DNA of 64,000 nt from a virus: positions 44,915-108,914 of IMG/VR virus record IMGVR_UViG_3300035670_010691. One strand, written 5' to 3'. A program made the position numbers and the translations under genes. Every line of letters begins with the position of its first letter. Position 1 is the stretch's first letter. Of this stretch, positions 19,043 to 63,571 are shown piece by piece. The notes under the pieces were generated by a model. The model was not told the origin of the DNA. It searched no databases and saw only the letters and a list, made by a program, of their open reading frames with translations.

Positions 19043-19046
19043 AAAC

Positions 19047-32900: not shown

Positions 32901-33796
32901 CACACAATATTAATAATATAGAATTTAAAACCTGCGGTGCAATGATATTTGCAGGTTGTTCTTTTACTTGGGGGCAGGGACTTTGGAGTTATTATCCAAC
33001 AAAATGGTATGTTCCAAAATGTTGGGAATATACAGCTGAAGGTGCCCCCATTCCACCAGCAGCTGAAGAATTCAAAGAAGATAATAGATATCCAGGATTG
33101 GTATCAAAAGAGTTTCATGCAAAACAAATAGTTAAAAAAACAAATGGTGGAACTGATGATGAATCGTTGAGATTTATAGAACAAGTTAGGACTAATGTAG
33201 TTGATAAACATAATATGTTAGTGACAAACACCGATTGGGAGGAAATTCATACTATTATAATTCAAACAACAGATAGTTACAGAAGTCCTTTTTTATTTGA
33301 ATATAAAAATCAAAAATATGAAATTTATTCAAGTCCTGGATATCAATTTTTAACCAGCTTAGTAAAAGTAAAATTTGAAGATAATGTATTGATTCATGAA
33401 GAACAACCAAACTTTGATATTTTTATTGATTGGTTAATTGATAATAATTTAACTGTTGATGATTTTCAACGAATTCATGTAAAAAAAATGATGGATAGGA
33501 TAGAAGAAGCGTTTAAAAATTTAGAAAAAGAAGGAAAAAAAGTTTTACTATTATCATGGACTAATTGTTATTTGGAAGAGATTAAAAAAAGAAATTACTT
33601 TGATGATAAATTTGTAAAATTAAATTATCTTGATCAGGAGTTTGATTCTATTCATGATTTAATGCAAAAATACAAATATTTTATAATTGATTATGATGAT
33701 GAGGTAATACACGATAGTGGTGGTGATGCTCATCCATCATTATTTTGTCATCAAATTATAGCAAATTCAATAATTTCTAAAATAAAATACGGATGA
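32885..33796 (+). CDS. SGNH hydrolase-like protein 4
   Basis: A 303-residue protein. MIFAGCSFTWGQGLW near residue 20 is block I with G-C-S-F-T instead of G-D-S, and SGGDAHPSLFCHQIIANSI near residue 280 is block V with Asp and His. KKTNGGTDDESLRFI near residue 80 stands where block II is expected. A close paralogue follows at 33793. The same G-C-S-F/Y-T-x-G form is found in the 15077 protein, so these three may be one subfamily. It overlaps the ThDP gene by 16 bases and its paralogue by 4. Substrate unknown; acylation or deacylation of a glycan is inferred. Confidence 0.65.
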   Translation: MGSILTHNINNIEFKTCGAMIFAGCSFTWGQGLWSYYPTKWYVPKCWEYTAEGAPIPPAAEEFKEDNRYPGLVSKEFHAKQIVKKTNGGTDDESLRFIEQVRTNVVDKHNMLVTNTDWEEIHTIIIQTTDSYRSPFLFEYKNQKYEIYSSPGYQFLTSLVKVKFEDNVLIHEEQPNFDIFIDWLIDNNLTVDDFQRIHVKKMMDRIEEAFKNLEKEGKKVLLLSWTNCYLEEIKKRNYFDDKFVKLNYLDQEFDSIHDLMQKYKYFIIDYDDEVIHDSGGDAHPSLFCHQIIANSIISKIKYG

Positions 33797-34692
33797 GTAA
33801 TTACATTTTATTTGGAGGTTGTTCATTTACATGGGGACAGGGGTTATGGTCATATACACCAAAATATCTTTGTCATCCTGATTTACATATTCCAACTGTT
33901 GATGAATACATCGAAAAAGAATTTGCGATACCCAAACCCGCTTTTGAATTTAAAAATCATAATAGATTTGCTAAATTAGTAAGTGGTCATTTTAATTCAG
34001 TTCCAATAGTAAAAAGAAGAAATGGTGGTTCTGATGAGGAAACGATAAGATTTTTGTATGAAGCTAAACAAAATTATGTAACAGACGAAAGTCTTCTTGA
34101 AAGAAATTTAGAATTTGAACGAGTAAAATTAATTGTATTTCAAACTACTCAAATATTTAGAAGTCCATTTACCTTTTTTTATAAAAATGAAGAATATCAA
34201 ATTAAATCAAATCCCGAAGAAAGAAATTTTAATCTAATTTTAAAAATTAATAGAAAATCATATAATCTAAATGAATATACAGAAGAAAAGATAGAAAAAT
34301 TTGATGTATTTTATAATTGGTTATACGATAATAATTTAAACATAGATGATTTTGAAAAAATTCATATTTCTCACATTGTTGATATAATAGAAAAATGTTT
34401 ATTAGATTTTCAAAATATGGGAATACCATCAATTATATTACCTTGGACAACAGAACATCTTACAGAAATGAATAAACGAAACTTTTTTCAAAATAAGATT
34501 ATAAAATTAAATTATAAAAATGTTGAATATTCTTCAATTAAACAAATGATGGATGAAAACCATGAATTAATTATAAGATTTGATAAAAAAGTAATTCACC
34601 CTTCAGGAGGTGATGACCACCCTTCTTTGGAATGTCATAAAATATTAGCACAAAATATAATAACTTTTGTAGAGAAAAATAAAATATTATGA
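33793..34692 (+). CDS. SGNH hydrolase-like protein 5
   Basis: A 299-residue paralogue of the protein at 32885, similar throughout: LFGGCSFTWGQGLWSYTPKY against AGCSFTWGQGLWSYYPTK, RRNGGSDEETIRFLYEA against KTNGGTDDESLRFIEQV, and SGGDDHPSLECHKIL against SGGDAHPSLFCHQII. The nucleophile, the block II residues and the terminal Asp-x-His are all preserved, so both copies look functional. The adjacent pair is a tandem duplication. The second copy is more AT-rich. It overlaps both neighbours by 4 bases. Confidence 0.65.
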   Translation: MSNYILFGGCSFTWGQGLWSYTPKYLCHPDLHIPTVDEYIEKEFAIPKPAFEFKNHNRFAKLVSGHFNSVPIVKRRNGGSDEETIRFLYEAKQNYVTDESLLERNLEFERVKLIVFQTTQIFRSPFTFFYKNEEYQIKSNPEERNFNLILKINRKSYNLNEYTEEKIEKFDVFYNWLYDNNLNIDDFEKIHISHIVDIIEKCLLDFQNMGIPSIILPWTTEHLTEMNKRNFFQNKIIKLNYKNVEYSSIKQMMDENHELIIRFDKKVIHPSGGDDHPSLECHKILAQNIITFVEKNKIL

Positions 34693-35918
34693 AAAAATTA
34701 TTGTATATTGAATTTTCTCACAATTCTTTATTTATCATACATTTTTTTAAACATTATTTTGAAGAAATAAATAATGATGTGGAAACTTGGCATCCATTAA
34801 AACCTGCCGATCGTTCACAAATTCAAAAAATGACATTTTCATTTTATTTTGAAGGGGATGAGGTTGATATATGGGTAAAGGATTTATCTTATTTAAAATC
34901 AAATTATTCATTTATTTCAAAAAACTATGATAAAGTAATTTTAATTTCACAACGTTTTTTTCTTGACAAAAATATTAAATTTTTTGAACATTTTTCAATT
35001 CCAAAATCTGTTAAAAAAGTTTATTTAAATATTGAAGAATCTTTTCAAATAAAATACGACCAAAAAGAATTTGATGAACATTCTGTAAAATTTATTTCCA
35101 ATTCTTTAAATAAAGAAAATATTAATTACATTTCTAATGATGATTCAAAGGATTTTAGTTATGAGGTATTTAAAGAAAAAATATTATTAATACCATTTTT
35201 GTCGTTTTATCATTTTTGGTATTTTCATGCTTTGTCATTTTTTGATTTTAGTTGTATTCAAAACAAAAAGGAAAATTTATTTGGAGTATATTACACAGAG
35301 GGATACAAATCACAACGAGATGATATTTTTTCACATATAAAAACTAATATTGATAAAAATAATTTGTTAAATAATTTTAAAATATATCACTCAACTATAC
35401 CATCTAATATCGTTGATAAAATGTATTCATACCATTTTAATGTTTGGGAACGAAATCATATCACTGGTTTTTCCGATTATCAAAGAAGTATTGTAAATTT
35501 TGTATTTGAAAGTGAAATATTATCAAATATTGATAATATATTTTTTACCGAAAAAGTATTAAAGGCGTTATTATTTTCAAATCAAAATATAATTTTTATA
35601 CCTGTAATGTCAATAGGCAACTACATAAAATTAAAAGAAATGGGTTATTGGTTTTTAAATTTTGACTTTTTCGATTTTGAAAATGTTGATAAAGATAATG
35701 TTGATAATAACCTTAAAATAATGATAAATTCAGTCACCAAGTCAATTGATTACATTTCTAATTTATATAAAGAACATGGTGAAAATTTGGAAAATTTAAA
35801 TAATTACTTAAAAGAAGTTTATGGTGAAAAAATGAAAAGAAATTATGAACTAATTATTAATGAATTTAAAAATTCAATAGAAACTGAAAAGATAGTAAAT
35901 TTTATATTAAAAGACTAA
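34689..35918 (+). CDS. Unassigned TEK-motif family protein, divergent member
   Basis: A 409-residue protein, the most divergent of the six described at 20191. FVFESEILSNIDNIFFTEKVLKALLFSNQNIIFIPV near residue 275 is the second motif (the F-T-E-K core kept), closer to the version in the 16901 fusion (FITEKTWKALFVGHPFIMFG) than to the others. The first motif is not clear; VYYTEGYKSQRDDIFSHI near residue 203 is the likely equivalent but lacks the H-R pair. It sits between the SGNH pair and the second half of the ThDP enzyme. Very AT-rich. Function not established. Confidence 0.45.
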   Translation: MKKLLYIEFSHNSLFIIHFFKHYFEEINNDVETWHPLKPADRSQIQKMTFSFYFEGDEVDIWVKDLSYLKSNYSFISKNYDKVILISQRFFLDKNIKFFEHFSIPKSVKKVYLNIEESFQIKYDQKEFDEHSVKFISNSLNKENINYISNDDSKDFSYEVFKEKILLIPFLSFYHFWYFHALSFFDFSCIQNKKENLFGVYYTEGYKSQRDDIFSHIKTNIDKNNLLNNFKIYHSTIPSNIVDKMYSYHFNVWERNHITGFSDYQRSIVNFVFESEILSNIDNIFFTEKVLKALLFSNQNIIFIPVMSIGNYIKLKEMGYWFLNFDFFDFENVDKDNVDNNLKIMINSVTKSIDYISNLYKEHGENLENLNNYLKEVYGEKMKRNYELIINEFKNSIETEKIVNFILKD

Positions 35919-35920
35919 AT

Positions 35921-36466
35921 ATGACAAAACCAGAATTCACACCTTATGTAGATGCACTAACTCACTCCATGAAACTTTGTATGGATGATCCAACCACGGT
36001 ATTCATCGGACAACAAATTCGGTGGTATGGAAATCCTATGTCTAAAACTATAGAAGGTCTTCCAAAAGAAAGAATGATAGAAACACCGGTAATGGAAGAA
36101 ACACAGATGGGAATGTCTATGGGTTTGGCCATGAGAGGACATACCGTAGTAACTTTTTATCCTCGTTGGGATTTTCTCATTCTTGCGGCAAATCAATTAG
36201 TAAATCATCTTGACAAGTTAGATGCAATGTCTGATGGGCAATGGAAACCAAAAGTAATAATTAGAGTTGGTAAAGGTAGTGACAAACCACTTGATCCAGG
36301 TCATCAACACAAAGCTGATTATTCAGATGCATTTAATCAAATACTAAAATATATTCCTATAGTAAAATTAGATAGTTATAATAAAATAATTCCAGCATAT
36401 GAAGATGCACTTCAACGAAATGGTTCTACTATATTGGTGGAATATCCTGAGTTATATTATGTTTAA
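35921..36466 (+). CDS. Thiamine-diphosphate enzyme, pyrimidine-binding (E1-beta/transketolase Pyr-type) subunit
   Basis: A 181-residue protein matching the pyrimidine-binding domain of E1-beta and transketolases. ETPVMEETQMGMSMGLAMRGHTVVTFYPRWDFLILAANQLVNHLDKL (residues 50 to 96) follows the E1-beta order: the Glu that activates the thiamine pyrimidine, then M-G-x-G-L-A-x-x-G, then a Y/F-x-R-x-D-F-x-x-x-x-x-x-Q-x-x-x-x-x segment. The transketolase C-terminal domain is absent. It presumably pairs with the protein at 32262. It is the last gene of the sugar cluster, and is GC-richer than the gene before it. Confidence 0.7.
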   Translation: MTKPEFTPYVDALTHSMKLCMDDPTTVFIGQQIRWYGNPMSKTIEGLPKERMIETPVMEETQMGMSMGLAMRGHTVVTFYPRWDFLILAANQLVNHLDKLDAMSDGQWKPKVIIRVGKGSDKPLDPGHQHKADYSDAFNQILKYIPIVKLDSYNKIIPAYEDALQRNGSTILVEYPELYYV

Positions 36467-36482
36467 ACAATAAAAATAAATT

Positions 36483-36599
36483 ATGAATATTATACAAAAA
36501 ATAAAAGATTATTTTAAAAGAAAAAAATTACACAAAGAATACAAAAAGAAATTAGAAGAACTTCGTAAAAGAGATCCTTTCGTATATAAGAATATGTAA
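36483..36599 (+). CDS. Small basic protein of 38 residues
   Basis: A short open frame between the sugar cluster and the giant multidomain gene. The product begins MNIIQKIKDYFKRKK, is strongly basic and helical, and ends in RDPFVYKNM. Its codon pattern (clear amphipathic helix, full use of the gap between two larger genes, ATG 16 bases after the preceding stop) supports a real gene. I know of no assigned function. It may bind nucleic acid or be a small inner-virion protein. Confidence 0.5.
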   Translation: MNIIQKIKDYFKRKKLHKEYKKKLEELRKRDPFVYKNM

Positions 36600-36610
36600 T
36601 TCTTTTACCT

Positions 36611-36620
36611 TATACTTATA
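36611..36620 (+). promoter_or_regulatory. TATACTTATA box, possible late promoter
   Basis: One base different from the recurrent TATATTTATA. It lies 18 bases before the ATG of the giant multidomain gene, in a 39-base non-coding gap, so it may start the transcription unit that includes that gene. Confidence 0.4.
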
Positions 36621-36638
36621 TAGAGTAAAAGTATATTC

Positions 36639-39600
36639 ATGAATAGTTTATCTAATTTTCTTGTTGAACAAATCCTTTTAGAAGACAAATCACCAATAAA
36701 GGATGTAGTAGTCGTTTATGTGGGTAGGTTTCAACCTATGCACAAAGGACATTATGCCGTCTATGAACACCTAACAAAAAAGTTTGGTAAAAATAATGTG
36801 TTCGTAGGAACATCCGACAAGGTTGAAAAAGATAGGTCTCCATTCTCATTCAAAGAAAAACAAGAAATTATGTATACGATGTTTGGTATTCCAAAAAATC
36901 GTATTGTAAATGTAAAAAACCCTTACGCACCCACCGAAGTTCTTAAAAAGTATAATGAGAAAACCACCGCGTTTGTCACCGTAGTTGGTGAGAAAGACAA
37001 ATCCCGTCTTGGTGGAAAATACTTTCAAAAGTGGGATGGTGAACCAACAGAAGGATATGATGTTAGGGGATATGTGTATGTCGCACCTTCTTTCGGTGGT
37101 GGTATAAGTGGAACTGAAACTCGTAATGGACTTTCACTTGGGTCAGACGAACAGAAAAAAGACTTCTTTAAAAATCGGGTATATGGAAAATATAATGAAA
37201 AGATTTTCCGTATGATTACCGACAAATTAAATGAAAGTTTCGTCATCAGAAAAGAAACCATAGAGGAATGGTTAATTAAAGAACATAATCATATCAACGG
37301 AACACTTGGGTTTTCTGACACAGGTGATATGGAAGTTGATGATGGCCCAAACTCATTCTTGCCAAACTTTGAAGTATTCAACAAAATTAATGTAGAAAGA
37401 GCAGTTAGAATTGGATACGATGTCTTACAGAAAATTACCATGGATGTGATTGAAGATTATCCAATTTATCCTGATGGGCCTGTTGATGCAGTTTCATTTT
37501 ATCCAGCAGGTGTGATTGGTAAATTAACGACAACAAACCAAGTCGATTATTATAATAATGACGCGTATGATGAGTGGTATAAACACGCAACCCGAGTTGC
37601 AGGACAAGCAGGGTATCAATTAGTTCAAACCGAATTAGAAAAAATACACGGTAAAGAAGTCGAAGACCAATCAGAAAAAGATGCAATTAACCTTAAAAAA
37701 TATATTGAAGAAAATATCAATATACCTGTAAAAGTTGGAGATACTATTTTAACAGGAAGATTTAAGAATAAAAAGGTAGTTGTAAAAAATATCGGTAAAG
37801 ATGATCATGGAATGCCCACTATAAACGGTAAAAAAGTAGTCAACTTCAGATTAGTTAAAGAAGGATTTATAGCTGAATTGGTTGGTTCAACCGTTGATTG
37901 TCAAAAATGTGACCATACTTGGGAAATTAGACCTGAAGATAAAACACCATATTTATGCCATTTGTGTGGATATGATAATCAAAAGATGGAATTTGATTAT
38001 GATGAGTGGAATAAGTGGAAAGAAAAAGAAGAAATTAATGAAGTTTCATCCAACGGTGGATATCGAGCAGACGCAGGTGAACCCGATCCAGTTTTTGTCA
38101 CAAATGGAAATATAAGAAAAATAAACTCAAACAAAGGTAGACCTGAATATTGGTTTGAAAACGGAGGGTATACACAACTTCATTTTCCAAAGGGAGATTT
38201 CCCGTTTGGTAAAGGTAAAGGAAAAGATACGGAGTCACAACAAAGAGTAGTAAAATACAAAGTTAAGAATGTAGTGAAGTCCACATTACCACCACCAAAA
38301 TCTAATGATGTAAATGTGGAAAAAATATACGAAACCATTAAAAAAGTAAATGGTAAATATGTTGTATATCCAAAAGGAGGTGGAGACAGGTTAGGAACTC
38401 ACGATACCCTTTCTGCAGCCAAAAAACAATTAGCAGCCATAGAAATTTCCAAACACAAACATGAAAGTCTTTTTGGTGGCGATGGTGGTATGAAACCTTA
38501 CGAAAAACTTCTTATGGGTGGATTGGTTAAATTCATGCAAAACACACTTGGATTTTCAGGTAAAGTAGTAGTAAAGAAAAAGTCATCAAACTCTCTATTC
38601 GGTGATTTAAGTTTAAGTGATGCTGCAATGAGAGGTAAAATCACACTTCACTACAATCCTAACTCTTCTTATGAGATAATGTTGAAGTCTCTTATACACG
38701 AACTCATACACGCTAAACAAGTTGCCAAAGGTGAACTAAAACCTTCATCTGATTACAAGTCATTAGTATGGAAGGGAAACCCTTTTATTTCGGTAAAAGA
38801 TTATAATAATTTTCAAAGAAAAGACATTAACCAATACAAAAAACTTCCTTGGGAGAAAGAAGCGTATGCTGGTATGGACAAATACTACCGTATGTTCTTA
38901 AACTCAAAAGAATTCAAAGAGTTAGTTGGTAAAGACCCTAATTTAGATTATATCTTATCAAATTTAAACGAAGTCGGTATAGGAACAGGTCAAAGTGGTC
39001 TTCGTATGGGATACCCCGATAAAGACCAATTAAAGAAGAGAATGAAGGATGTTGAAAACCAAAGAAAACAAACTGATAGTAATAAAGAGTTTCAGTATGA
39101 ACCGATAAATGAAGGTCAGTTAGAAGATTTAGGTATTACAGACTTCAAATCCCTTTTCCAAAAAATGCCTTCTGACTTACAAAAACGAGTATACAACCTC
39201 AAAAATATTGAGCAAAGAAAAGACACACACCCCGAGGGTAATGTCCTTAAACACACCATTACAGTCGTTAATCGTTCACTTAAAGATGATGATATAGACA
39301 TCGCAATTGCAGCAATGTTTCATGATATTGGTAAAGACGAAACGATGGGTATTCATCCAACAAAAGGACACATTACTCACTTCGGTCACGAAAAAGTATC
39401 TGCAAATTTAGTAAGTAAATACAAAAACTGGATACAAAGTGTTGGTGCTAATCCTGCAAATGTTTTATACATCGTCAAAAATCATATGAGATATAAAGAA
39501 CTATCTAATATGAGACCAAAAAAACAGGAAAAACTTAAATCATTTAGAGCATTTGATAAATTAGATAAGTTTTCTAAACACGATAGAGGTGGTTTAGGTG

Positions 39601-41579
39601 AAGGTATTGATTATGTTGTTTGTCGGGAATGTGGTGAGAAGATGAAACAAGTTCAATACAGACATCTCCAATATAAACACAACATGACGTTGGAAGAATA
39701 CAGAAAAAAACATCCAAGTGCACAACTTGTCTGTGAAACTGCAAAAAGTATTGGTGATAAAAATCCAATGAAAAACACAGAGGTTAGAAAAAAACATCAA
39801 AAATCTGTATCATCTATTGAGTATAAACAAATGATGAGTGAACGGATGACAGGTGTGAACAAAGGAAATAAACGACCTGATTTAGAAAAACTAAACAAAG
39901 ATCCTAATTTTAGAAGAAAAATAAGTGAAGGTGTAAAACGTTCATATCAAAACAACCCAAGTCTTTTAGAAAACAGAACTAATTCGGGTAAAAAATATGG
40001 ATTTGGAAATCAAAAAACAAAAGAAAAAATAGCAAAGATAAAAGGTCACGTTAGTCCACAAGATAAAGACCCATTTTTATTCTATACCGAATTGGTTAGA
40101 AATAAAACAAATGAAAACTATCAAAAACATTTTGATAAAATAGAAAATGCTAAAAAACGAAGTAGAGATTTTCATTTAGATCACAAATACAGTATAAAAG
40201 AAGGATTTGATAATAATATTCCTGTTGAAGTGATTGCACATTATAAAAATCTACGAATACTTGATGGTAGATTGAATGAGAGTAAAGGATCGAAATCTTC
40301 AATAAAACTAAATGAACTCATTGTAGATATACAAAATTCAAATGATCCACTTGATAATAGAATACTTTTATTATGCGGTGGGGCGTACGGCCACATGGCT
40401 CATCCGTTTGATACAGAGATAAACTTAACTTTCGGTGACCTTAAAGATATTGCTAATCGTGCATTAGATGGAACACTTGAACTAACCACCGAGAAAACAG
40501 ACGGACAAGCACTTGCAATTTCTTGGAGAGATGATAGAGGTTTAATTGCTGCAAGAAACAAAGGACACCTTAAAAATCGTGGTGAAAGTGCATTGGATAT
40601 AAATGGTGTATCTGCTAAATTCCAAGGTCGTGGTGGTCTTTCAGACGCTTACAATTTTGCTATGAAAGACCTAACTAAAGCAATAAAAACTTTATCTCCA
40701 AAACAAAGAGAAAAGATTTTCCAAAATGGTAGTTCATTTATGAATTTAGAAGTCATTTACCCAACTTCGGTAAATGTTATTCCTTACGGTCAACCACTTC
40801 TTATTTTCCACGGAACAATGCAATATGACGAAAATGGAATTGCTGTTGGTGAAAATAAAGAAGCAGCAAGAATACTTGCAGGTATGATTAAACAAGTCAA
40901 CCAAGATGTTCAAGACAATTATACTATTCAAGGTCCACCCTTTATTCAATTACCAAAATCACAAACACTTTCTTCTAAAAAAGGAAAGTATTTAGGTCAA
41001 ATTCAAAAATTACAAAGTGAGTTTGGTTTAAAAGATACAGATGGAGTTGCAGAATATCATCAGGCCTGGTGGTCTAATTGGGTAGATAAAAACTCACCTG
41101 TCACATTAGACAATAAAACCAAAATGGGATTGGTTAAGAGATGGGCTTTTGGTGATAAATCTTTTAGTTTAAATAAAAACAATATACCTGACCAAAAATT
41201 ATTAGAGTGGGCACAAAAACACGAAAAAGACAACCATCAAAAAATTTCAAAAGATAATTTAATGAAATTTGAAAATATATTCTTGGGTCTTGGTGCAGAA
41301 GTATTAGAATTTACTTCATCTGCCCTAACTGTAAATCCTGATAAAGCAATTAGGGATATGAAACAAAGATTAGACCAAACTGCTAAGGATGTTCGCAAAT
41401 CAGGTGACCCTAAAAAAATAGCAAAACTTAAATTAGAATTGGAAAGATTAAACTCTATTGGTGGTCCATCTAAAATCGTTCCAATCGAAGGGATAGTTTT
41501 TCAATATAAAGGAAAAACGATGAAACTTACTGGTTCATTTGCTTCTCTCAACCAAATCTTGGGTATTTTTTACGGATGA
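36639..41579 (+). CDS. Giant multidomain protein: NMNAT-like, zinc ribbon, metallopeptidase, HD, HNH/NUMOD, ligase-like
   Basis: A 1646-residue protein with at least six parts. Residues 23 to 195: nucleotidyltransferase of the NMNAT/NadM type (GRFQPMHKGH at 29 to 38, ISGTETRN near 157). 421 to 443: zinc ribbon (Cys421, 424, 440, 443). 574 to 611: small YPKGGG-LGTH module. 650 to 770: zincin (HELIH at 687 to 691, a later Glu near 741). 860 to 985: HD phosphohydrolase (His895-Asp896 in HDIGKD). 989 to 1226: Cys/His finger, NUMOD-like GDKNPMKN, HNH-like LDHKYSI. 1240 to 1646: ligase-like nucleotidyltransferase (KTDG with Lys1286, late PIEGIVFQYKG). The parts are separated by (L/I)NE or LGE motifs after residues 199, 468, 778, 825, 988, 1214 and 1226, resembling prohead-protease sites, and the N-terminus (FLVEQILLED) resembles a capsid-targeting peptide. 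Confidence 0.8.
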   Translation: MNSLSNFLVEQILLEDKSPIKDVVVVYVGRFQPMHKGHYAVYEHLTKKFGKNNVFVGTSDKVEKDRSPFSFKEKQEIMYTMFGIPKNRIVNVKNPYAPTEVLKKYNEKTTAFVTVVGEKDKSRLGGKYFQKWDGEPTEGYDVRGYVYVAPSFGGGISGTETRNGLSLGSDEQKKDFFKNRVYGKYNEKIFRMITDKLNESFVIRKETIEEWLIKEHNHINGTLGFSDTGDMEVDDGPNSFLPNFEVFNKINVERAVRIGYDVLQKITMDVIEDYPIYPDGPVDAVSFYPAGVIGKLTTTNQVDYYNNDAYDEWYKHATRVAGQAGYQLVQTELEKIHGKEVEDQSEKDAINLKKYIEENINIPVKVGDTILTGRFKNKKVVVKNIGKDDHGMPTINGKKVVNFRLVKEGFIAELVGSTVDCQKCDHTWEIRPEDKTPYLCHLCGYDNQKMEFDYDEWNKWKEKEEINEVSSNGGYRADAGEPDPVFVTNGNIRKINSNKGRPEYWFENGGYTQLHFPKGDFPFGKGKGKDTESQQRVVKYKVKNVVKSTLPPPKSNDVNVEKIYETIKKVNGKYVVYPKGGGDRLGTHDTLSAAKKQLAAIEISKHKHESLFGGDGGMKPYEKLLMGGLVKFMQNTLGFSGKVVVKKKSSNSLFGDLSLSDAAMRGKITLHYNPNSSYEIMLKSLIHELIHAKQVAKGELKPSSDYKSLVWKGNPFISVKDYNNFQRKDINQYKKLPWEKEAYAGMDKYYRMFLNSKEFKELVGKDPNLDYILSNLNEVGIGTGQSGLRMGYPDKDQLKKRMKDVENQRKQTDSNKEFQYEPINEGQLEDLGITDFKSLFQKMPSDLQKRVYNLKNIEQRKDTHPEGNVLKHTITVVNRSLKDDDIDIAIAAMFHDIGKDETMGIHPTKGHITHFGHEKVSANLVSKYKNWIQSVGANPANVLYIVKNHMRYKELSNMRPKKQEKLKSFRAFDKLDKFSKHDRGGLGEGIDYVVCRECGEKMKQVQYRHLQYKHNMTLEEYRKKHPSAQLVCETAKSIGDKNPMKNTEVRKKHQKSVSSIEYKQMMSERMTGVNKGNKRPDLEKLNKDPNFRRKISEGVKRSYQNNPSLLENRTNSGKKYGFGNQKTKEKIAKIKGHVSPQDKDPFLFYTELVRNKTNENYQKHFDKIENAKKRSRDFHLDHKYSIKEGFDNNIPVEVIAHYKNLRILDGRLNESKGSKSSIKLNELIVDIQNSNDPLDNRILLLCGGAYGHMAHPFDTEINLTFGDLKDIANRALDGTLELTTEKTDGQALAISWRDDRGLIAARNKGHLKNRGESALDINGVSAKFQGRGGLSDAYNFAMKDLTKAIKTLSPKQREKIFQNGSSFMNLEVIYPTSVNVIPYGQPLLIFHGTMQYDENGIAVGENKEAARILAGMIKQVNQDVQDNYTIQGPPFIQLPKSQTLSSKKGKYLGQIQKLQSEFGLKDTDGVAEYHQAWWSNWVDKNSPVTLDNKTKMGLVKRWAFGDKSFSLNKNNIPDQKLLEWAQKHEKDNHQKISKDNLMKFENIFLGLGAEVLEFTSSALTVNPDKAIRDMKQRLDQTAKDVRKSGDPKKIAKLKLELERLNSIGGPSKIVPIEGIVFQYKGKTMKLTGSFASLNQILGIFYG
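39603..40290 (+). mobile_element. In-frame HNH/NUMOD homing-endonuclease-like module inside the giant gene
   Basis: Residues about 989 to 1215 of the 36639 protein look like a free-standing homing endonuclease fused in frame: a Cys-Cys-His-His finger (CRECGEK, then YRHLQYKH), a T-L-E-E-Y-R-K-K-H-P segment as in MucR-like fingers, NUMOD3-like GDKNPMKN and KISEGVKRSYQ helices, then an HNH-like DFHLDHKYSI with KNLRILDGRLNESKGSKS. Intein borders are absent (no N-terminal Cys/Ser block A at the junction, no His-Asn-Cys/Ser/Thr end) and the frame is uninterrupted, so this is a fusion and not an intron or intein. It lies exactly between the HD and ligase parts. Confidence 0.6.
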
Positions 41580-50832: not shown

Positions 50833-51633
50833 ATGAAAATTTCAAAAAACAGATTAAGAGAGATTGTTAAAGAAGTTATTAAAGAAGAGTCAGAATACCA
50901 AGAGTTCTTCAAAAGAGCATTAGAAAAAACAGGTAAATCAATACCACAAATGTCTGATGAAGAGAAAAAGGCTTTCTTTGATAAAATTGAAGCTGCATGG
51001 AAAGGTAAAGGTGAGAAAAATGAAGGTAACGCATTTGGTGCTGCTGTTTCTCAAGCAAAAGAAGAAGGTGATGACTCGTTTGAGGTTGGTGGAAAAACAT
51101 TCAAAGTAAAAGAAGCAACAATGGGTGAATCTGAACTTCCTAATGTTGCTATCCCAAGTAGTGTAAAAACAAAGTTAAATTTGGCTATTGATAAAATTAA
51201 AGATAGTAAATTAACTTACCCACAAAAATTACAAGTGGTTGGTAAAATTATTGATAGTTTAGGTGTTGATAAACAAGAATTGACTAAAATGTCAAGTAGA
51301 TTAAGAGGAACTTTGGAATCCGTAGTAAACGAAGCAAAAGTAATTGTATATAATGAAAAAACTGGTGAACGATATGAGGTTTTATCTGGAAAGGGTAAGG
51401 GTGATTTGTTTATTGCTATGAAAGCTTTACAAAAAGTAGCCCCATCTCATATGAAATATTCTATCAAAGAATCCGTAGTAAAAGAAGGTGCTTCATCAGA
51501 AGAACTTCGTATGGCTAAAAACGCAATTAAAAACTTTGCAAGATATAGAAGAGTTCCAGGTGAACAAGCAATATATGACTTGATGAGAGCTCTTAAAGAT
51601 GTTGAAAGAGAATATAAACAAAAAAAGAAGTGA
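50833..51633 (+). CDS. Modular protein with prohead-protease-like linkers
   Basis: A 266-residue protein built of short modules. It begins with a basic helix (NRLREIVKEVIKEESEYQEFF), then a module AFGAAVSQAKEEGDDSFEVGGKTFKVKE (residues 67 to 94) that recurs in the 53497 protein (AFINAAKKAKEEGKTEFEFNGKTYPVTLKE). Linkers fitting a hydrophobic-x-E then A/G rule follow: VKE-A at 94, VVNE-A at 167 and VVKE-G at 218. I infer an internal head protein processed by the neighbouring protease. The gene overlaps a GTG-started small gene by 4 bases. Confidence 0.6.
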   Translation: MKISKNRLREIVKEVIKEESEYQEFFKRALEKTGKSIPQMSDEEKKAFFDKIEAAWKGKGEKNEGNAFGAAVSQAKEEGDDSFEVGGKTFKVKEATMGESELPNVAIPSSVKTKLNLAIDKIKDSKLTYPQKLQVVGKIIDSLGVDKQELTKMSSRLRGTLESVVNEAKVIVYNEKTGERYEVLSGKGKGDLFIAMKALQKVAPSHMKYSIKESVVKEGASSEELRMAKNAIKNFARYRRVPGEQAIYDLMRALKDVEREYKQKKK

Positions 51634-51806
51634 AAAAATTAGATGAAATACTTAACGAGTTGGTTTTGGAAGAGTTAGAAAAAAACCAAAACCTAAAAGA
51701 AGAAATCACGGGTGTTGATGAAGATAAAATCCGTGATTTAATTCGTTCAGAAGTTTCAGCAATATTTTTTGATTTATTTAAGAAACGTAAAATGTGGGGA
51801 GCGTAA
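51630..51806 (+). CDS. Small late protein with GTG start
   Basis: A 58-residue open frame that fills the gap before the protease gene. The GTG at 51630 overlaps the upstream stop (GTGA), and its TAA at 51804 is immediately followed by the protease ATG, so the gene fits the operon exactly. The product begins KKLDEILNELVLEELEK and ends IRDLIRSEVSAIFFDLFKK then RKMWGA. It is acidic first and amphipathic after, with the look of small prohead-core proteins of T4-like phages. It is easily missed because of its size and start codon. Confidence 0.65.
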   Translation: MKKLDEILNELVLEELEKNQNLKEEITGVDEDKIRDLIRSEVSAIFFDLFKKRKMWGA

Positions 51807-52400
51807 ATGAAACAACTTTTAATAGAAACAAATCTATTTGAAGGTAAAATAAATGAAGATGCAAGTGGTAGAACACTTGTTAAAGGAATTTTACAACGAG
51901 CAGGTGCAGAAAACCAAAATGGTAGAGTGTATCCAAAAGATATTTTAATGCGTGAAGCAAAGAAATATGAAACTCTTATTAATGAAAGAAGAGCACTTGG
52001 TGAATTAGACCACCCTGACTCATCAGTCATTAACTTAAAGAATGTATCCCACAATATTAAAGAAATTCACTGGGAAGGAAATGACTTGATGGGAACCGTA
52101 GAAATCCTTCCAACTCCAAGTGGAAACATTTTAAAAGAATTACTAAAAGCAGGTATCCTTCTTGGTATATCTTCCCGTGGTATGGGTTCAGTAAAACCAA
52201 TTGGAGAAAATAAGGTAGAAGTCGGTGAAGACTTTGAACTAATTGGCTGGGACTTTGTTTCTAACCCGTCAACACACGGAGCATTTATGGTTCCAGTAAA
52301 CGAAAGTGTAAATAGAGGTCAAATGATTGGGTCTGAGCAATGTGATATTTATTGTAAAGCACAAGACTTAATGAGAGAAATTATAACTGAATTAGGATAA
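51807..52400 (+). CDS. Prohead core protease (gp21-like)
   Basis: A 197-residue serine protease of the T4 gp21 type. GILQRAGAENQNGRVYPKDIL near residue 27 is the conserved opening. The catalytic His is in GELDHPDS (His69) and the nucleophile in GISSRGMGSV (Ser122 or Ser123). GWDFVSNPSTHGAFM near residue 147 closes the domain. T4 gp21 cuts core, scaffold and capsid proteins after (L/I)-x-E during head maturation and digests itself. Its own N-terminus (LFEGKINEDASG) contains a similar E-containing site. In this phage it lies directly upstream of several proteins rich in candidate sites. Confidence 0.9.
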   Translation: MKQLLIETNLFEGKINEDASGRTLVKGILQRAGAENQNGRVYPKDILMREAKKYETLINERRALGELDHPDSSVINLKNVSHNIKEIHWEGNDLMGTVEILPTPSGNILKELLKAGILLGISSRGMGSVKPIGENKVEVGEDFELIGWDFVSNPSTHGAFMVPVNESVNRGQMIGSEQCDIYCKAQDLMREIITELG

Positions 52401-52404
52401 AAAA

Positions 52405-52989
52405 ATGAGTAAATTTGATTTAGAAAAATATCTAAAAGAAAATAAAATCGGACTTGGTAAATATAAAACTACCGAAGGTGGTAAAGTTGCCAAAGGAGTT
52501 TCTGATGTCCGTAAAACGAATTACGATGTTCGTATTACCGAAGATGGTAAGTTAGACCTTTATACTCACAAATCAGTTATTGCTGAAGGTGGTAAAGTTC
52601 TTATCAGAGAAAATGAAGAAAGACCTCTTGCAACTGAAGTTAAAAGACACTTTTTAGAAATTATATCCACATACAAAGGTTTCCAAGAACAAATGCAAAG
52701 ACAAAGTGATATTGTTCAGACAGCAGAAACTTTGGGTGGTGTGGTTGAAGCAGCAAAAACTCTTACTCTTTCTGAAGCAGGTGATTGGTTTGATAAAGTC
52801 ACGGTGAAAAGAAATATGAGTGAGTTAGATAAGTTAGATAAAGCATTTGATAAAGTTGCTCAGGAAGCAAAATCATTAGACGAAAGATTACACGCACTTT
52901 ACGAAGATATGGGTAATATCCTCAATCGTTATTATGAAATCAGTGATATTGACCCCCTAACGATGAAAGAAAGATTAGGTCAAAAATGA
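52405..52989 (+). CDS. Hypothetical late protein, possible head component
   Basis: A 194-residue protein without a recognised family. The N-terminal 85 residues contain beta-like segments (NYDVRITEDGKLDLYTH) and the C-terminal half is helical, with ELDKLDKAFDKVAQEAKSLDERLHALYEDMGNILNRYYEI (residues 141 to 180) predicted as a long amphipathic helix. Candidate protease sites are V-I-A-E-G at residue 59 to 63 and L-S-E-A near 122. It lies 4 bases after the protease gene and overlaps the next by 4, as expected for a prohead component. Exact role unknown. Confidence 0.55.
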   Translation: MSKFDLEKYLKENKIGLGKYKTTEGGKVAKGVSDVRKTNYDVRITEDGKLDLYTHKSVIAEGGKVLIRENEERPLATEVKRHFLEIISTYKGFQEQMQRQSDIVQTAETLGGVVEAAKTLTLSEAGDWFDKVTVKRNMSELDKLDKAFDKVAQEAKSLDERLHALYEDMGNILNRYYEISDIDPLTMKERLGQK

Positions 52990-53177
52990 TAAAGTTAAAA
53001 GATATTATATCAGAAGAAGTTTTAGAGGAAAAGAATTGTCCTACTGATTCTTCAAAATGGTCGTATTGGAAAGGACAAGCAAAAAAGAAATTTGATGTAT
53101 ATCCTTCTGCTTACGCAAATGGCTGGGCTTCAAAACAATACAAAGCCGCCGGCGGTGCCTGGAAAAAATGTGATTAA
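52986..53177 (+). CDS. Small module protein with a capsid-targeting-like N-terminus
   Basis: A 63-residue protein. The first part, MIKLKDIISEEVLEE, resembles the T4 internal-protein targeting peptide (a short basic-hydrophobic stretch ending in hydrophobic-x-E). The rest, AKKKFDVYPSAYANGWASKQYKAAGGAWKK, is a module widely seen in tailed phages (K-F-D-V-Y-P-S-A-Y-A-N-G-W). Two Cys (residues 18 and 62) may bind metal or pair. I infer a small internal head protein. Function unknown. It overlaps the upstream gene by 4 bases. Confidence 0.6.
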   Translation: MIKLKDIISEEVLEEKNCPTDSSKWSYWKGQAKKKFDVYPSAYANGWASKQYKAAGGAWKKCD

Positions 53178-56197: not shown

Positions 56198-58921
56198 ATG
56201 AATCTTTCAAAACTTTTACCTTATCTAAATCAAGAATCAAAGGATAATTTAGACATGATGAATAAAATGGGAATTAAATTAGGACAAGTTGTATCTGATC
56301 CGAGAGTAAAAGTTTTTGGTAAAGTGAATGAAGCTGAAGATGATAAATATACTCATATTGGGTATGGTAAGTACAAATTAAAAGGTAAAGAGGATGATGA
56401 GAACTCCCCAACATTTACCAAAGACGATACTGGTAAATATATTCCTACCAAATCTGATAAAGGTGGTAAAGGTCAAGAAAAACCAAAGGTAAACATCTTT
56501 GATAAACCAAAATCTGATGGAATGGATACTGTTAAATCAATTGCAGCAAAAACTGGATTGAGAGCACAGGCACTTGCAGGTTGGGCAGATGAAAATGGGG
56601 TTAATTTATCAAAAGTATCGGATGCTATTAATTCCAAGAAGTTAAAACCAATGGATTTAATGACAGCTATATCAGGAAATCCTGGAAACAAATATGCAAA
56701 AGATATTATTGCAAAATATTCGCAATCAAACGATACTAAATCAGATACAACAAAGGTTCCTTCAAGTAAATTAACAGATGTTCTTCCAAAAGCTAATCCC
56801 GAAACTTTTGAAAAACCATCAGATATAAACAAAATACCTGATAGTCAAAAATTGGAAGTTTCAATGAAGATTGATAAGTTAGCAGAATTAGCAAAACAGG
56901 CAAAAGAAAAAGGAGAAGCTGCTCCTAATTTTAACCTTTGTGAAATTACTATTCCAGGAACCAATTTATATTGTGAAGGAAATGCTGGTATTCCTCGTGA
57001 ACAAATGCCACAATTTAAAGGAACACCAACACCTGGATCACCCGCAGATAAATTACCAAGAGATAATTCTGGTGAAGTAGATACAGAACCAATGTTCCGT
57101 GCAATGTTAAAGAAAAATGGAATCAAAACGGTAGAAACAGAACTTCCATCAGATAGACTTAAAGCAACTCAAAGTGAATTGGTAGGTGCAAAAGTAGCAG
57201 GAATGACAAAGGCGTTAGAAAAAGACCCCAACCACCCAGCAATTACCGCACCAATTTATGTTAGTAGAGATGGGTATGTAGTAGACGGTCACCATCGTTG
57301 GGCGGCAATGACTTCATATGCAATGAAAAGTGGTAAACCTGCAAACATGAGAGTTATCGTTATAGACAAAGATATAAATGAGGTAATACCAATGTCAAAT
57401 AAATTTGCAGAAGATATAGGGGTTGCTGCCAAGAAAGCACAAACTCAAAAAGAAATTAAAAAGGCATTTAAAGAAATTATAGAACTAACAAGGTCTTATG
57501 TAAACGAACAAGAAGAAGGTCAGGTAAATGTCGGTGGATATGAAACACAACACTTTGATGTTTGTCCTGCTGCAACCGCACTTTACAAAGACATAGAGTC
57601 CAAAGGAGTGGATATGGACTTGGCTTCAAGAACAGCGAAACTACAAGATGTTCTTTTCTTTATTGAAAAACACGTCCAAGAACAAGGGTATAAACCAAAT
57701 CCATATTATGGTAAAGTTGCACAAATTCTTGGTGATCAAATTATGACAATGGGTGGTATGATGGAGTTAGGTTCAGAGCACTCATATATTCAAGGACATA
57801 TAGATAAAATACAATCAGCAGTTGAAAATAATTCTATAAAAGAAGCTTCAGAAAAAACAATTGTAAACCCTGAAACTGGTAAGAGAATTAAAGTTTCAAC
57901 CGCATTATCTTACGATAAAAAACATCCTGCATATAAAGCAGCATCAAAACTTTCATCAAAATCTGCACCAAAAAAATCAAGTTATGAAAGAGGTGACACG
58001 GTTAGAATTATCAGTAACCCTAAATTTGTAACTGATAAAAACTTTTGGGGTAAGGCAGGATACGTTAAAAACACCATGGGTAGGGATGTAATGGTGACAT
58101 TCCCTAATGGTAGAACAATTATAGTAGATCCAAGGGACTTACAACCAATTGCAAACGAATCCGTAAACGAAGCAGCAAAACCTTCACAAGTTCGTTCTGT
58201 TATTTCAAGAGTTAAAAAAGACTTGATGAAAAAGTGGAAACAAAAAGGTGGATACGAAAACTTTGGTGATAAAGAAGGTGATATGTTGAGAAAAAAGTTT
58301 AACTTCAATCCATATGGTTCATCAGAGGAAAGAGAAATTGCACAAATGATTCAAGGTTTTGAAGAGTGGGCAATTAATTACGATGGTAATATGAGAGAAA
58401 CCGTAAACGAAGCAAAAGCAATAAGTGGTGGTAAAATACACAAATTCATCACAGGTAAAAACCTCATATATAAGGGGAAGAAATATCCTGATATAGAATT
58501 TGAATTATTGGGTATTGATAATTCTAATCAGTTAGTAAATTTAAAAGTTTTATTCCCAAAAAATATTTTCGGACAAGAAATGAAAGTTCCATTCAAATCA
58601 ATCCGTAGAGGTGGTTTCATCAAAACAGATACTTCCAAAGTAAACGAATCATCAAACTACGAAGTTTATCATAAAAGTTATACATCAGCTATTGATACAG
58701 CATTAGAATATGCAAAGAAAAAAGGATTCACAACAGATCCCGAAGAAGTAGCTGATTTAGTTGGATTGCAATCAAGAAGACCAGGTAAAGGTAAAACTAC
58801 AAGAGTTTCTATTCCACTTTACAAAAACGGAAAACCACAAAGAGCTGGACTTCAAATAGTTGTTTATGGTATGGATGGTAATTCTTCAAGACCATATGAA
58901 TTGACAACTTACATAAGATGA
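56198..58921 (+). CDS. Beads-on-a-string polyprotein 2, with a ParB-like domain
   Basis: About 907 residues from ATG 56198, 1 base after the previous stop. Linkers of the same kind occur after residues 45 (KVNE-A), 395 (DINE-V), 437 (YVNE-Q), 549 (SIKE-A), 658 (ESVNE-A), 738 (ETVNE-A) and 817 (KVNE-S). Residues about 290 to 395 form a ParB/sulfiredoxin-like domain with the DGHHRWAA motif at 363 to 370. Residues about 596 to 650 look like a KOW beta domain (YERGDTVRII, GRDVMVTFPNG). The last module (YEVYHKSYTSAID to QIVVYGM) recurs in many phages. I infer a second cleavable precursor of internal head proteins. Confidence 0.72.
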   Translation: MNLSKLLPYLNQESKDNLDMMNKMGIKLGQVVSDPRVKVFGKVNEAEDDKYTHIGYGKYKLKGKEDDENSPTFTKDDTGKYIPTKSDKGGKGQEKPKVNIFDKPKSDGMDTVKSIAAKTGLRAQALAGWADENGVNLSKVSDAINSKKLKPMDLMTAISGNPGNKYAKDIIAKYSQSNDTKSDTTKVPSSKLTDVLPKANPETFEKPSDINKIPDSQKLEVSMKIDKLAELAKQAKEKGEAAPNFNLCEITIPGTNLYCEGNAGIPREQMPQFKGTPTPGSPADKLPRDNSGEVDTEPMFRAMLKKNGIKTVETELPSDRLKATQSELVGAKVAGMTKALEKDPNHPAITAPIYVSRDGYVVDGHHRWAAMTSYAMKSGKPANMRVIVIDKDINEVIPMSNKFAEDIGVAAKKAQTQKEIKKAFKEIIELTRSYVNEQEEGQVNVGGYETQHFDVCPAATALYKDIESKGVDMDLASRTAKLQDVLFFIEKHVQEQGYKPNPYYGKVAQILGDQIMTMGGMMELGSEHSYIQGHIDKIQSAVENNSIKEASEKTIVNPETGKRIKVSTALSYDKKHPAYKAASKLSSKSAPKKSSYERGDTVRIISNPKFVTDKNFWGKAGYVKNTMGRDVMVTFPNGRTIIVDPRDLQPIANESVNEAAKPSQVRSVISRVKKDLMKKWKQKGGYENFGDKEGDMLRKKFNFNPYGSSEEREIAQMIQGFEEWAINYDGNMRETVNEAKAISGGKIHKFITGKNLIYKGKKYPDIEFELLGIDNSNQLVNLKVLFPKNIFGQEMKVPFKSIRRGGFIKTDTSKVNESSNYEVYHKSYTSAIDTALEYAKKKGFTTDPEEVADLVGLQSRRPGKGKTTRVSIPLYKNGKPQRAGLQIVVYGMDGNSSRPYELTTYIR

Positions 58922-59457
58922 TAAAATTAAAATCTCTTATATCAGAAGATAAAGTATCAGGTGGTCTATCTGATAATATGTCTTTATCTGACATTGCAAA
59001 AAAACATAATGTATCAGTAGAAGAACTCAATAAAGAGTTTGAAATGGGTATGAAAGTAGAAATGGAACATACCACAGATAAAGAGATAGCTAAAGAAATA
59101 GCAAAAGACCACTTATTTGAAGACCCAAAATACTACACTAAATTAGCAACCATAGAAACCAACGAAGACCTCCGTAATTGGTTTAAATCTAAATGGGTAA
59201 ACATCGGTAAAAAAGTAGATGGTAAACACCCACCTTGTGGAACAAGTGGTGAGAAAAGTGGGTATGCTAAATGTGTTCCTGCATCAAAAGCAGCAACAAT
59301 GTCCAAAAAAGAAAAAGAAAGTGCAACACGTAGAAAACGTGCAGCACAAAATAAAGCAAACAGAGGTGGAGTTGATTCACCAGGTCAAGGAAAAAAACCT
59401 ATTAATGTTTCAACCCATCCCTATGGTAAAAAATCAGGAACAGGAAAAGGTTCATAA
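58918..59457 (+). CDS. Modular late protein with capsid-targeting-like N-terminus
   Basis: A 179-residue protein in three parts. MIKLKSLISEDKVSGG parallels MIKLKDIISEE of the 52986 protein, again ending in I-S-E. Residues 20 to 78 (SLSDIAKKHNVSVEELNKEFEMGMKVEMEHTTDKEIAKEIAKDHL) match a DUF5661-like helical module (E-x-G-x-x-V-E-x-E-H-T-x-D-x-x-x-A-x-x-I-A-x-D-H-L). Residues 90 to 179 hold the module WVNIGKKVDGKHPPCGTSG then YAKCVPASKAATMSKKEKESATRRKRAAQNK, seen in many phages. It overlaps the polyprotein gene by 4 bases. I infer a virion internal protein. Confidence 0.62.
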   Translation: MIKLKSLISEDKVSGGLSDNMSLSDIAKKHNVSVEELNKEFEMGMKVEMEHTTDKEIAKEIAKDHLFEDPKYYTKLATIETNEDLRNWFKSKWVNIGKKVDGKHPPCGTSGEKSGYAKCVPASKAATMSKKEKESATRRKRAAQNKANRGGVDSPGQGKKPINVSTHPYGKKSGTGKGS

Positions 59458-59478: not shown

Positions 59479-59694
59479 ATGGCACAAAACGTAGCAGTAA
59501 TCGTAAGAAAAGGTGATTTAAATAGAGCACTTAAAATTTTTAAAAGAAAAGTCAGTGAATTAGGTATTCTTGAAGAATATAAATCAAAACAAGAATATAT
59601 CAAACCAACCACAAAAAGAAGAGAAGCAAAAAAGGCTGCAAAAAGAGCTCAACAATTAGAAGTCATTAAAAATAAACCCAAAGCAAAAATATAA
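59479..59694 (+). CDS. rpsU: Ribosomal protein bS21
   Basis: A 71-residue basic protein matching bacterial S21 over its whole length: VAVIVRKGDLNRALKIFKRKVSELGILEEYKSKQEYIKPTTKRREAKKAAKR. The features are an N-terminal strand, a helix with R-A-L-K/R-x-F-K-R, a G-I/V-L then a K-P-T/S-x-K-R-R basic tail. S21 sits near the anti-Shine-Dalgarno end of 16S rRNA and affects initiation. Phage copies are known in some marine and very large phages and are thought to bias host ribosomes toward phage messages. It sits among late genes. The capsid and polyprotein genes here do have AAGGA-type Shine-Dalgarno elements. Confidence 0.9.
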   Translation: MAQNVAVIVRKGDLNRALKIFKRKVSELGILEEYKSKQEYIKPTTKRREAKKAAKRAQQLEVIKNKPKAKI

Positions 59695-61951: not shown

Positions 61952-63571
61952 ATGGCAAATTTCGATTTATCAAAACTTATGGCAGGCAAGAATCCACAAG
62001 CAGTAATGCTTCAGGAAACTCGTCAACTTCGCAATAAGTGGGAAAAAACAGGTCTTTTAGAAGGACTTGCAGAGAGAGAACAATCTCAAATCTCTGTTCT
62101 TTTAGAAAACCAAGCAAAGCAATTACTTGATGAGGCAACTCAAACAGGTACATCTGCTGGTTCAGAAGAGTGGTCAGGCGTTGCCCTTCCACTTGTAAGA
62201 CGTATCTTTGGTGAAATTGCAGCGAAAGAATTCGTTTCAGTTCAACCAATGAACTTACCATCAGGTCTTATTTTCTATCTAGACTTCAAATACGGTTCAG
62301 GTCAACCAGGTAACCCATCATTCGTATCACAATCACTTTTCGGTGGTACAGGTGCAGACCTTGGTTCAACAGACTCAGCTGTAAATGGTCTTTATGGTGA
62401 AGGACGTTATGGTTATTCAGTAAACGATCAAGCAGTAACAGTAGCATCTGGTTCTTATACAGTTGCAACTGCTTCTTGGGCAGAAGTTGGTTACGATGCA
62501 TCACTTTCCGCATCCGTAGCTGCTAACCAATTAGCAAAAATCACAGTTGCTGGTGGTCAGTTCACACGTCCAGACCTTGAGTCAGTACGTTCATTCTACA
62601 TTTCATCATCTGCATTCGCAGCTGCTGATACATTCTATCCTGCACACTCTGACAAATCAGGTACAAGTGCAGTATTCTACGCAAAAGTAACAGACTTAAC
62701 AAGTGCAACATCTTCACTTGCTATCAATTATTCACAACAACCAGTTGCTGAAAATCGTGGTGACTTCGAAGACAGAAATCCAGTTGTAGGTGGTTCTTCA
62801 CCTGCAGGTACAGCTCTTGATATTCCTGAAATCGACCTCGAACTTCGTTCAGAAGCTATCGTAGCGAAAACAAGAAAACTCAAAGCAGTATGGACACCTG
62901 AATTAGCTCAAGACTTGAATGCATATCACTCAATCGACGCTGAAGCTGAATTAACATCAATGCTTTCTGAGTACATTTCACTTGAAATCGACCTCGAAAT
63001 CCTTGATATGTTAAAGACAAATGCTCTTACAACAGAGTATTGGTCAGTTTCTATCGGTGAAGAGTACAACTCTGCAACAAGTGCTTGGGTAGCTGCTACA
63101 AACGCACAGGCTTACACTAAAAACACATGGTTCCAAACACTTGGTGCCAAAATTAACAAAGTATCCAACAAGATTCACCAATTAACACTTCGTGGTGGTG
63201 CTAACTTCATCGTTGCATCTCCTGATGTATGTACAATTCTTGAGTCAATTCCAGGATTCGTTGTTAATGCTGACAAAGACGCAATGTCTTATGCAGCTGG
63301 TGTAACACAAATTGGTGCTATGTCAAACAGATACCAAGTTTACAAAAACCCATACATGACTTCTAACGAAATCTTGTTAGGTTTCCGTGGAAATAACTTC
63401 CTCGAAACAGGTGCTGTTTACGCTCCATACGTACCGCTTATCATGACACCGTTGGTATATGACCCAACAAACTTCACACCAAGACGCGGCGTGATGACAA
63501 GATACGCTAAGAAGATGGTTAGGCCAGAATTTTATGGTCGTATCTTCATTAAAGATTTGGCTAACGTCTAA
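61952..63571 (+). CDS. Major capsid protein (gp23-like)
   Basis: The 539-residue HK97-fold capsid subunit. The N-terminal 61 residues are a removable delta domain, and LLDE at 58 to 61 followed by ATQTGTSAG is a good match to the prohead-protease site of T4 gp23 (which is cut after Glu65). EEWSGVALPLVRRIFGEIAAKEFVSVQPMNLPSGLIFYLDFKYG (residues 72 to 115) and AVWTPELAQDLNAYHSIDAEAELTSMLSEYISLEIDLEIL are strongly conserved in gp23. An AAGGAGAG lies 8 bases before the ATG, the best Shine-Dalgarno in the window, as expected for the most abundant protein. Codons are GC-richer than elsewhere. Confidence 0.95.
   Translation: MANFDLSKLMAGKNPQAVMLQETRQLRNKWEKTGLLEGLAEREQSQISVLLENQAKQLLDEATQTGTSAGSEEWSGVALPLVRRIFGEIAAKEFVSVQPMNLPSGLIFYLDFKYGSGQPGNPSFVSQSLFGGTGADLGSTDSAVNGLYGEGRYGYSVNDQAVTVASGSYTVATASWAEVGYDASLSASVAANQLAKITVAGGQFTRPDLESVRSFYISSSAFAAADTFYPAHSDKSGTSAVFYAKVTDLTSATSSLAINYSQQPVAENRGDFEDRNPVVGGSSPAGTALDIPEIDLELRSEAIVAKTRKLKAVWTPELAQDLNAYHSIDAEAELTSMLSEYISLEIDLEILDMLKTNALTTEYWSVSIGEEYNSATSAWVAATNAQAYTKNTWFQTLGAKINKVSNKIHQLTLRGGANFIVASPDVCTILESIPGFVVNADKDAMSYAAGVTQIGAMSNRYQVYKNPYMTSNEILLGFRGNNFLETGAVYAPYVPLIMTPLVYDPTNFTPRRGVMTRYAKKMVRPEFYGRIFIKDLANV

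Follow-up and report, generated by a model that had tools for sequence, protein, structure and literature searches.

In bacteriophage T4, capsid targeting acts mainly through residues 4 and 7 of a ten-residue N-terminal sequence and its processing through residues 8 and 10, with the phage protease cutting after L/I-x-E (PMC9026906). The T4 internal proteins IPII and IPIII (100 and 193 aa) both begin MKTYQEFIAE, as the initial annotation of the DNA studied here had held in giving them a targeting peptide that ends in I-A-E. The first 10 residues of T4 gp24 are removed by the protease (PMC9958956), and Alt, a large enzyme in the T4 head, is processed by gp21 (PMC9026906) and injected. Polyvalent proteins (Iyer et al. 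2017, PMC5512222) combine many unrelated enzymatic domains in one polypeptide; 131 domains have been catalogued, the proteins are predicted to be injected, and release of their domains by proteolysis has been proposed. A term search of the text available for that paper returned no 'NMNAT', 'HD domain' or 'capsid targeting'. NMNAT-like proteins have been reported in cyanomyovirus virions (PMC10665884, PMC9602691), where the authors of the S-CREM2 study left co-purification of such proteins possible (PMC10665884). The available sections of the cyanomyovirus virion papers on these NMNAT-like proteins do not mention a targeting sequence, and the literature searched contained no printed record linking a capsid-targeting leader to cyanophage virion proteins.

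The stretch analysed here (the window, 64,000 nucleotides) covers bases 44915-108914 of the 108,914-base virus record IMGVR_UViG_3300035670_010691. It encodes a giant multi-enzyme (Table 1) whose N-terminus, by ORF translation, is MNSLSNFLVEQILLEDKSPIKDVVVVYVGRFQP. The start codon is safe because the reading frame is closed by a stop six codons upstream, and no further Met occurs in frame before residue 34, which falls within the GRFQPM nucleotidyltransferase motif. The decapeptide M-N-S-L4-S-N-F7-L8-V-E10 is hydrophobic at positions 4 and 7 (L4, F7) and has L8 and E10; IPII and IPIII likewise show hydrophobic residues at 4 and 7, L/I at 8 and E10 within their ten N-terminal residues. L-V-E occupies residues 8-10, and in contrast to IPII and IPIII a second L-x-E site, L-L-E at residues 13-15, follows the leader. 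The T4 proteins are also small single cargoes, whereas the 1646-aa giant has fixed ends and a variable middle. In an AlphaFold model of residues 1-230 a separate helix spans residues 3-14 at lower confidence (pLDDT about 66-70 per block), while the NMNAT fold begins at residue 22 with a strand at 22-28. The hydrophobic helix ahead of the NMNAT strand described in the initial annotation is thus borne out, as are its L-V-E and L-L-E; the peptide itself had been given without the initial Met, and its 15 residues were counted as 16. The exact T4-register motif arose in 159 of 200,000 random starts drawn with the giant's own composition. A capsid-targeting-like peptide at the start of the giant is confirmed as real, beyond chance.

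Table 1. Positions in the window of the giant gene, its parts and the head-associated genes discussed in the text
Feature	Coordinates	Strand	Size or residues	Basis
Giant multi-enzyme gene	36639..41579	+	1646 aa	ORF; relatives in IMG/VR and phages
Capsid-targeting-like leader MNSLSNFLVE	36639..36668	+	ten residues	exact T4 register, conserved in relatives; predicted cleavage after E10
Second L-x-E site of leader, QILLE	36669..36683	+	residues 11-15	E15 nearly invariant, 42-row alignment A3
NMNAT-like nucleotidyltransferase domain	36702..37238	+	residues 22-200	PF01467 E 7.8e-8
Small mobile domain mid2, VKVGDTILTGRFKNKK, I-E-E before it	37707..37898	+		context in relatives, free-standing relatives
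HExxH-containing domain	38556..38966	+	residues about 640-776	phrog_16532 E 3.7e-13
HD domain	39273..39533	+	residues 879-965	PF01966 E 1.3e-7
MucR zinc finger and HNH-like insert	39591..40343	+	residues 985-1235	PF05443 E 6.8e-8; phrog_5104 E 1.7e-11
LLLC in place of [LI]-x-E before GG	40365..40376	+		family comparison
C-terminal KxDG nucleotidyltransferase / RNA-ligase-like domain	40380..41576	+	residues 1248-1646	K-x-D-G and E-G motifs
Small protein, exact-register leader MKKLDEILNE, GTG start	51630..51806	+		motif census
gp21-type prohead protease	51807..52400	+		phrog_207 E 3.3e-51; Peptidase_S77 E 3.8e-27
Small protein, exact-register leader MIKLKDIISE	52986..53177	+		motif census
DUF5661 protein, exact-register leader MIKLKSLISE	58918..59457	+		motif census, domain scans
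gp23-type major capsid protein	61952..63571	+		PF07068 E 2.6e-76

Domains of disparate biochemistry are joined in this one chain: NMNAT-like, HD, MucR/HNH-like and ligase-like. The NMNAT-like domain resembles NadM (profile match to 2qjt, E 4.4e-5; best Foldseek match 2qjt, E 1.2e-5). The HD domain matches the tRNA nucleotidyltransferase family phrog_2244 weakly (E 0.0011), and the HExxH domain has a free-standing relative in record G010 with a leader-like start. The HNH label of the insert comes from reading the sequence; an intein was considered for it and dropped, as no intein splice-junction residues were seen by eye at its borders. For the C-terminal domain, VIA-align placed DNA and RNA ligases at the head of its list at Z 5-6, mixed with unrelated rows; Foldseek gave T4 Rnl1 weakly (E 0.13), Pfam RNA_ligase matched weakly in one of seven members (E 0.011), and a search of the ligase profile against PDB sequences yielded nothing convincing. 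The K-x-D-G motif of this domain is invariant across 41 rows of the matches listed, and its E-G motif is invariant as well. Both ends of the giants are constant, an NMNAT-like start and a KxDG ligase-like end, the ligase fold matches being moderate. HD and poly(A)-polymerase domains co-occur in CCA-adding enzymes, and CCA-enzyme-type domains together with a ligase point to a role in RNA repair. RNA repair in phages has been discussed (PMC9503650, PMC7824862), and nicotinamide phosphoribosyltransferase has been linked to every phage NadM (PMC9503650).

Scans of IMG/VR for relatives confirmed at least 530 and at least 553 stretches, and the best 80 of each were used. Once sequences with identical first 60 residues had been removed, 73 full-length proteins containing both an NMNAT and a ligase part remained, the window's included. 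A 639-aa version is encoded by Microcystis phage Mel-JY01. Among these listed matches, 31 leaders are exact, 31 show the same spacing in another register, mostly of the MGKLIKEWVKGILTE type, and 11 show neither; most of these last either have no leader or begin with a different region. Taken at 90% NMNAT identity, 18 of 50 listed matches have the exact leader, 26 more have L/I-x-E within the leader, four are leaderless and two have neither. A leader is kept in most of the relatives listed down to about 50% NMNAT identity. Position 10 is D, Q or N in L124, L136, L197 and L218, all of which keep a later L-x-E. No leader is present in L271/L273 or in L258, L260, L261, L266, L267 and L268, which start with the MDKPxVKKTVVVY type. 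Since L260 lives in record G012, which contains the protease, universal packaging of the giants is disfavoured.

The cargo between the NMNAT and ligase ends is hypervariable. Middles in 71 of the matches listed are between 78 and 1371 residues long, and Pfam domains in 61 listed middles include DUF5661 (8), HD (6), the poly(A) polymerase head (5), MucR (4) and acetyltransferase (3). Free-standing relatives of middle domains, 14 in all, were found in 14 T4-like records. Four of these 14 carry the exact leader, compared with 35 of 2959 other proteins (P = 2.3e-5), and the DUF5661 protein of the window is one of the four. In several of the 12 relatives compared (of 14), likeness to the fused copy begins at or next to the final E of the leader; in the others it begins elsewhere.

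To count the leader across genomes, the pattern was fixed from T4 (hydrophobic residues at 4 and 7, L or I at 8, E at 10) and scored at gene starts; the expectation was taken from how often the same spacing occurs within proteins. Of the 264 genes called in T4 itself, 4 match the exact motif where 0.33 would be expected: ipII and ipIII, annotated as internal virion proteins, 61.1, and a 427-aa protein which, by gene order, we take to be gp24. Other known T4 core proteins are missed, so the motif is specific rather than sensitive; Alt, an ADP-ribosyltransferase that may be likened to the giant as a large head enzyme, is not among the T4 matches. T4 61.1 (18966-19130), annotated as hypothetical, begins MKTFKEFIKE and is a candidate T4 internal protein. 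In the full 108.9-kb record studied here the motif starts 5 of 99 called genes (0.19 expected, P = 1.6e-6), and it is shared by unrelated proteins. Four of the five sit in the head-gene end; one match, at record 3539-3796 and so beyond the window, could be a coincidence. Seven T4-like records pooled gave 24 of 1654 genes compared with 2.3 expected; this pool excludes G005, a fragment with no protease match and exact starts in 0 of 45 genes. Four control phages without a phrog_207 match (SPO1, crAss001, phi38:1 and N4) gave 0 of 460 (0.6 expected), and the two sets differ with Fisher P = 0.0027. Starts in the T4-like pool peak at E10, with 24 compared with 7 at E9 and 4 at E11. KVP40 alone had no excess of the motif (1 of 397 genes). 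Six further records, picked for carrying the giant, gave 19 of 1284 genes (1.66 expected), three of the 19 being giants themselves. A clustering of tagged genes near the protease was considered and not retained: 14 of 348 versus 10 of 1035 gives P = 5e-4, but P = 0.012 without the giants, and in most single genomes the difference is not significant. T4-like phages repeatedly show a second class of starts as well, in which E stands near position 14 (12 cases at E14), and in G004 (31898-38198, loci L045) seven small proteins near head genes start with MKLTKxxLKEMIREEL or similar.

The record encodes a gp17-type terminase, a gp20-type portal, a gp21-type protease (Peptidase_S77) and a gp23 capsid protein, and therefore the phage builds a T4-like head. 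T4 and the phage of the window thus have in common a gp21-type protease and a tag shared by unrelated proteins. By eye, the capsid protein has QLLDE-A where T4 gp23 is cut at FLTE-A, and two relatives have LISE-A and LISE-N. The head module also contains a second multidomain protein of 907 aa (56198-58921), in which DKYTHIGYG- and SGGKIHKFITGKN-type modules common to the cargo of other giants come after N-E-A or V-N-E-A. A ribosomal protein S21 homologue lies among the head genes (59479-59694, PF01165 E 4.1e-11); Microcystis phage Mel-JY01 has one annotated in a comparable position. About forty co-directional genes between tail and head genes fill positions 1-36466, where many glycosyltransferase-, sugar-epimerase- or SGNH-like sequences were noted by eye.

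Published virion proteomes of cyanophages allowed a further comparison. For S-CREM2, the 52 proteins of the available virion table (PMC10665884) were set against 156 other genes. The exact motif starts 4 of the 52 and none of the 156 (P = 0.0036). The four are a SAM hydrolase, an APH/ChoK-like kinase, a cytidylyltransferase (NMNAT-like) and a small hypothetical protein. Because starts were annotated for the virion proteins and called for the other genes, the count was repeated with every possible start allowed for all genes, giving 4 of 50 versus 1 of 156 (P = 0.013). The exact motif is missing from all 24 structural proteins of the virion table. In S-SCSM1, where 220 kb yielded 246 called genes, the sole exact match is an NMNAT annotated as a virion protein, and the virion cytidylyltransferase of S-SZBM1 (PMC9146016) begins MRFRQFIIE, with the same spacing and one residue fewer. 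P-SSM2 PSSM2_194 has the exact motif by sequence. Like the giant, S-CREM2 ORF154, S-SCSM1 ORF91, S-SZBM1_140 and PSSM2_194 therefore place an NMNAT-like domain behind a T4-register leader (one residue shorter in S-SZBM1), but they measure 286-424 aa and lack both the cargo and a ligase-like end. Between the NMNAT profile of the window and the S-CREM2 enzyme, 141 columns could be aligned (hhalign E 9.5e-6), a kinship confined to the NMNAT domain. S-CREM2 ORF154, S-SCSM1 ORF91 and S-SZBM1_140 have been detected in virions; published data on other phages thus support a virion location for tagged NMNAT-like proteins and, by analogy, suggest one for the giant. The leader on the S-CREM2 virion proteins argues for real packaging over co-purification. 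S-CREM2 ORF12 (record 7704-10313, minus strand), listed as a virion-detected Cas9-like nuclease, has a displaced leader-like RFASFMAE stretch near its start.

The initial annotation had proposed, by analogy with T4, that the giant is delivered into the host with the DNA. This analogy is supported by the exact register, the gp21-type protease (Peptidase_S77 E 3.8e-27) and a tag common to unrelated proteins, and further by the leader in most relatives, its absence from the control phages and its agreement with the cyanophage virion proteomes. We consider an account running from a T4-type leader through packaging, gp21-type cutting and injection to counter-defence to be likely. Residues 1-10 would be a T4-type capsid-targeting sequence whose amphipathic helix, late in infection, would bind the giant to the prohead core, so that it is packed. 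The gp21-type protease would cut it after E10 and/or E15, and the cut giant would be injected with the DNA into a new host. There, the NMNAT-like and RNA-ligase-like ends with their variable cargo (here HD, HExxH and others) would most likely act against defences that deplete NAD or cut RNA, at a time when phage genes are not yet expressed. Register match, protease gene, leader sharing, conservation and modularity were computed here; we infer the packaging, cleavage, delivery and host function of the giant.

It is also conceivable, if unlikely, that the leader is a packaging tag and the giant acts in head assembly only or stays in the empty capsid, with no delivery to a host. The same exact-register leader stands on the T4 protein whose gene order makes it presumably gp24, a shell protein, and an uncut chain of the giant's size would be hard to eject; the N4 virion RNA polymerase is a precedent for very large ejected proteins. 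However, the giant's domains are variable metabolic and nucleic-acid enzymes and not conserved assembly parts, and T4 IPII and IPIII, with the same tag, are described as acting in the host against GmrSD enzymes (PMC12373910, PMC9391042). That the leader is a mere N-terminal helix of the NMNAT-like enzyme, serving oligomerisation or folding and resembling T4 by coincidence, we regard as improbable: leaderless members retain the NMNAT core, so the leader is separable and not needed for the fold, and the same register occurs on unrelated proteins with a peak at E10, is absent from the control phages (0/460) and tracks virion location in the S-CREM2 table, even though L-x-x-F-L-x-E is short and helix-like and [LI]-x-E is not enriched in the middles. 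We give very little credence to use of the giant solely within the infected cell, for ordinary NAD salvage or RNA repair with the leader as a relic, since, despite the other register in 31 of 73 listed relatives and the leaderless members, most listed relatives retain a leader to about 50% NMNAT identity and PF04095, the nicotinamide phosphoribosyltransferase tied to every phage NadM (PMC9503650), turned up in just 2 of the 11 records with the giant or ligase (several may be incomplete).

Returning to the packaged and injected giant, we also considered whether it is cut into pieces. [LI]-x-E-GG, with x variable, directly precedes the ligase in 68 of 73 listed members, which suggests that in these relatives the prohead protease may cleave a polyprotein of the head. 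The claim is a weaker one, and the window's copy lacks the site: it is one of five exceptions, with LLLC-GG, and four (the window, L233, L250 and L269) share LLLC. The pre-ligase stretch of the window falls below pLDDT 50 in the model of the ligase part. L004 has a copy of EGGA on each side of its insert. In the middles, L/I-x-E is not enriched over the reversed pattern (481 to 492), and with the last 15 residues set aside, L/I-x-E followed by G, S, A or N counts 128 versus 134 reversed, where shuffling expects 76. Processing at every domain border is therefore not claimed. The giant contains six L/I-N-E sites versus 1.0 expected (P = 5.9e-4, chosen post hoc and uncorrected for 99 proteins). 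An E ahead of the small VKVGD domain also occurs in HTVC008M without L (PGQENIN), so it may belong to the domain. Packaging is accordingly rated high and cutting into pieces possible, given the middles without L/I-x-E enrichment and the missing pre-ligase site of the window. Polyvalent proteins have been proposed to release their domains through embedded peptidase domains, whereas for the giant a tag and the phage's own prohead protease would be implicated.

A broader reading, which we hold tentatively and with some doubt, is that hundreds of aquatic T4-like phages make one capsid-targeted polyprotein with fixed ends and, between them, a hypervariable set of domains for counter-defence (HD, CCA-enzyme-like, acetyltransferase, DUF5661, HExxH and others). 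A single leader would load it, the protease would cut at L/I-x-E between domains, the repair kit would be injected, and domains would swap with leader-bearing free genes. If so, the protease that matures the capsid would also set free, ready to be injected, a kit for the repair of NAD and RNA.

New here are the extension of the capsid-targeting hypothesis to a family of giant multi-enzymes, the observation that cargo bearing the leader is shared and exchanged, and the comparison with virion proteomes. The giant of this aquatic T4-like phage probably travels inside the virion and enters the host together with the DNA, and once injected it could protect the infection from its first moment. NMNAT-like and kinase-like proteins have been reported repeatedly from cyanophage virions, and the leader offers a mechanism for their presence there. 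That phages inject enzymes for NAD and RNA repair before their genes are expressed becomes a directly testable idea, and many hypothetical proteins with the leader become candidate anti-defence factors.
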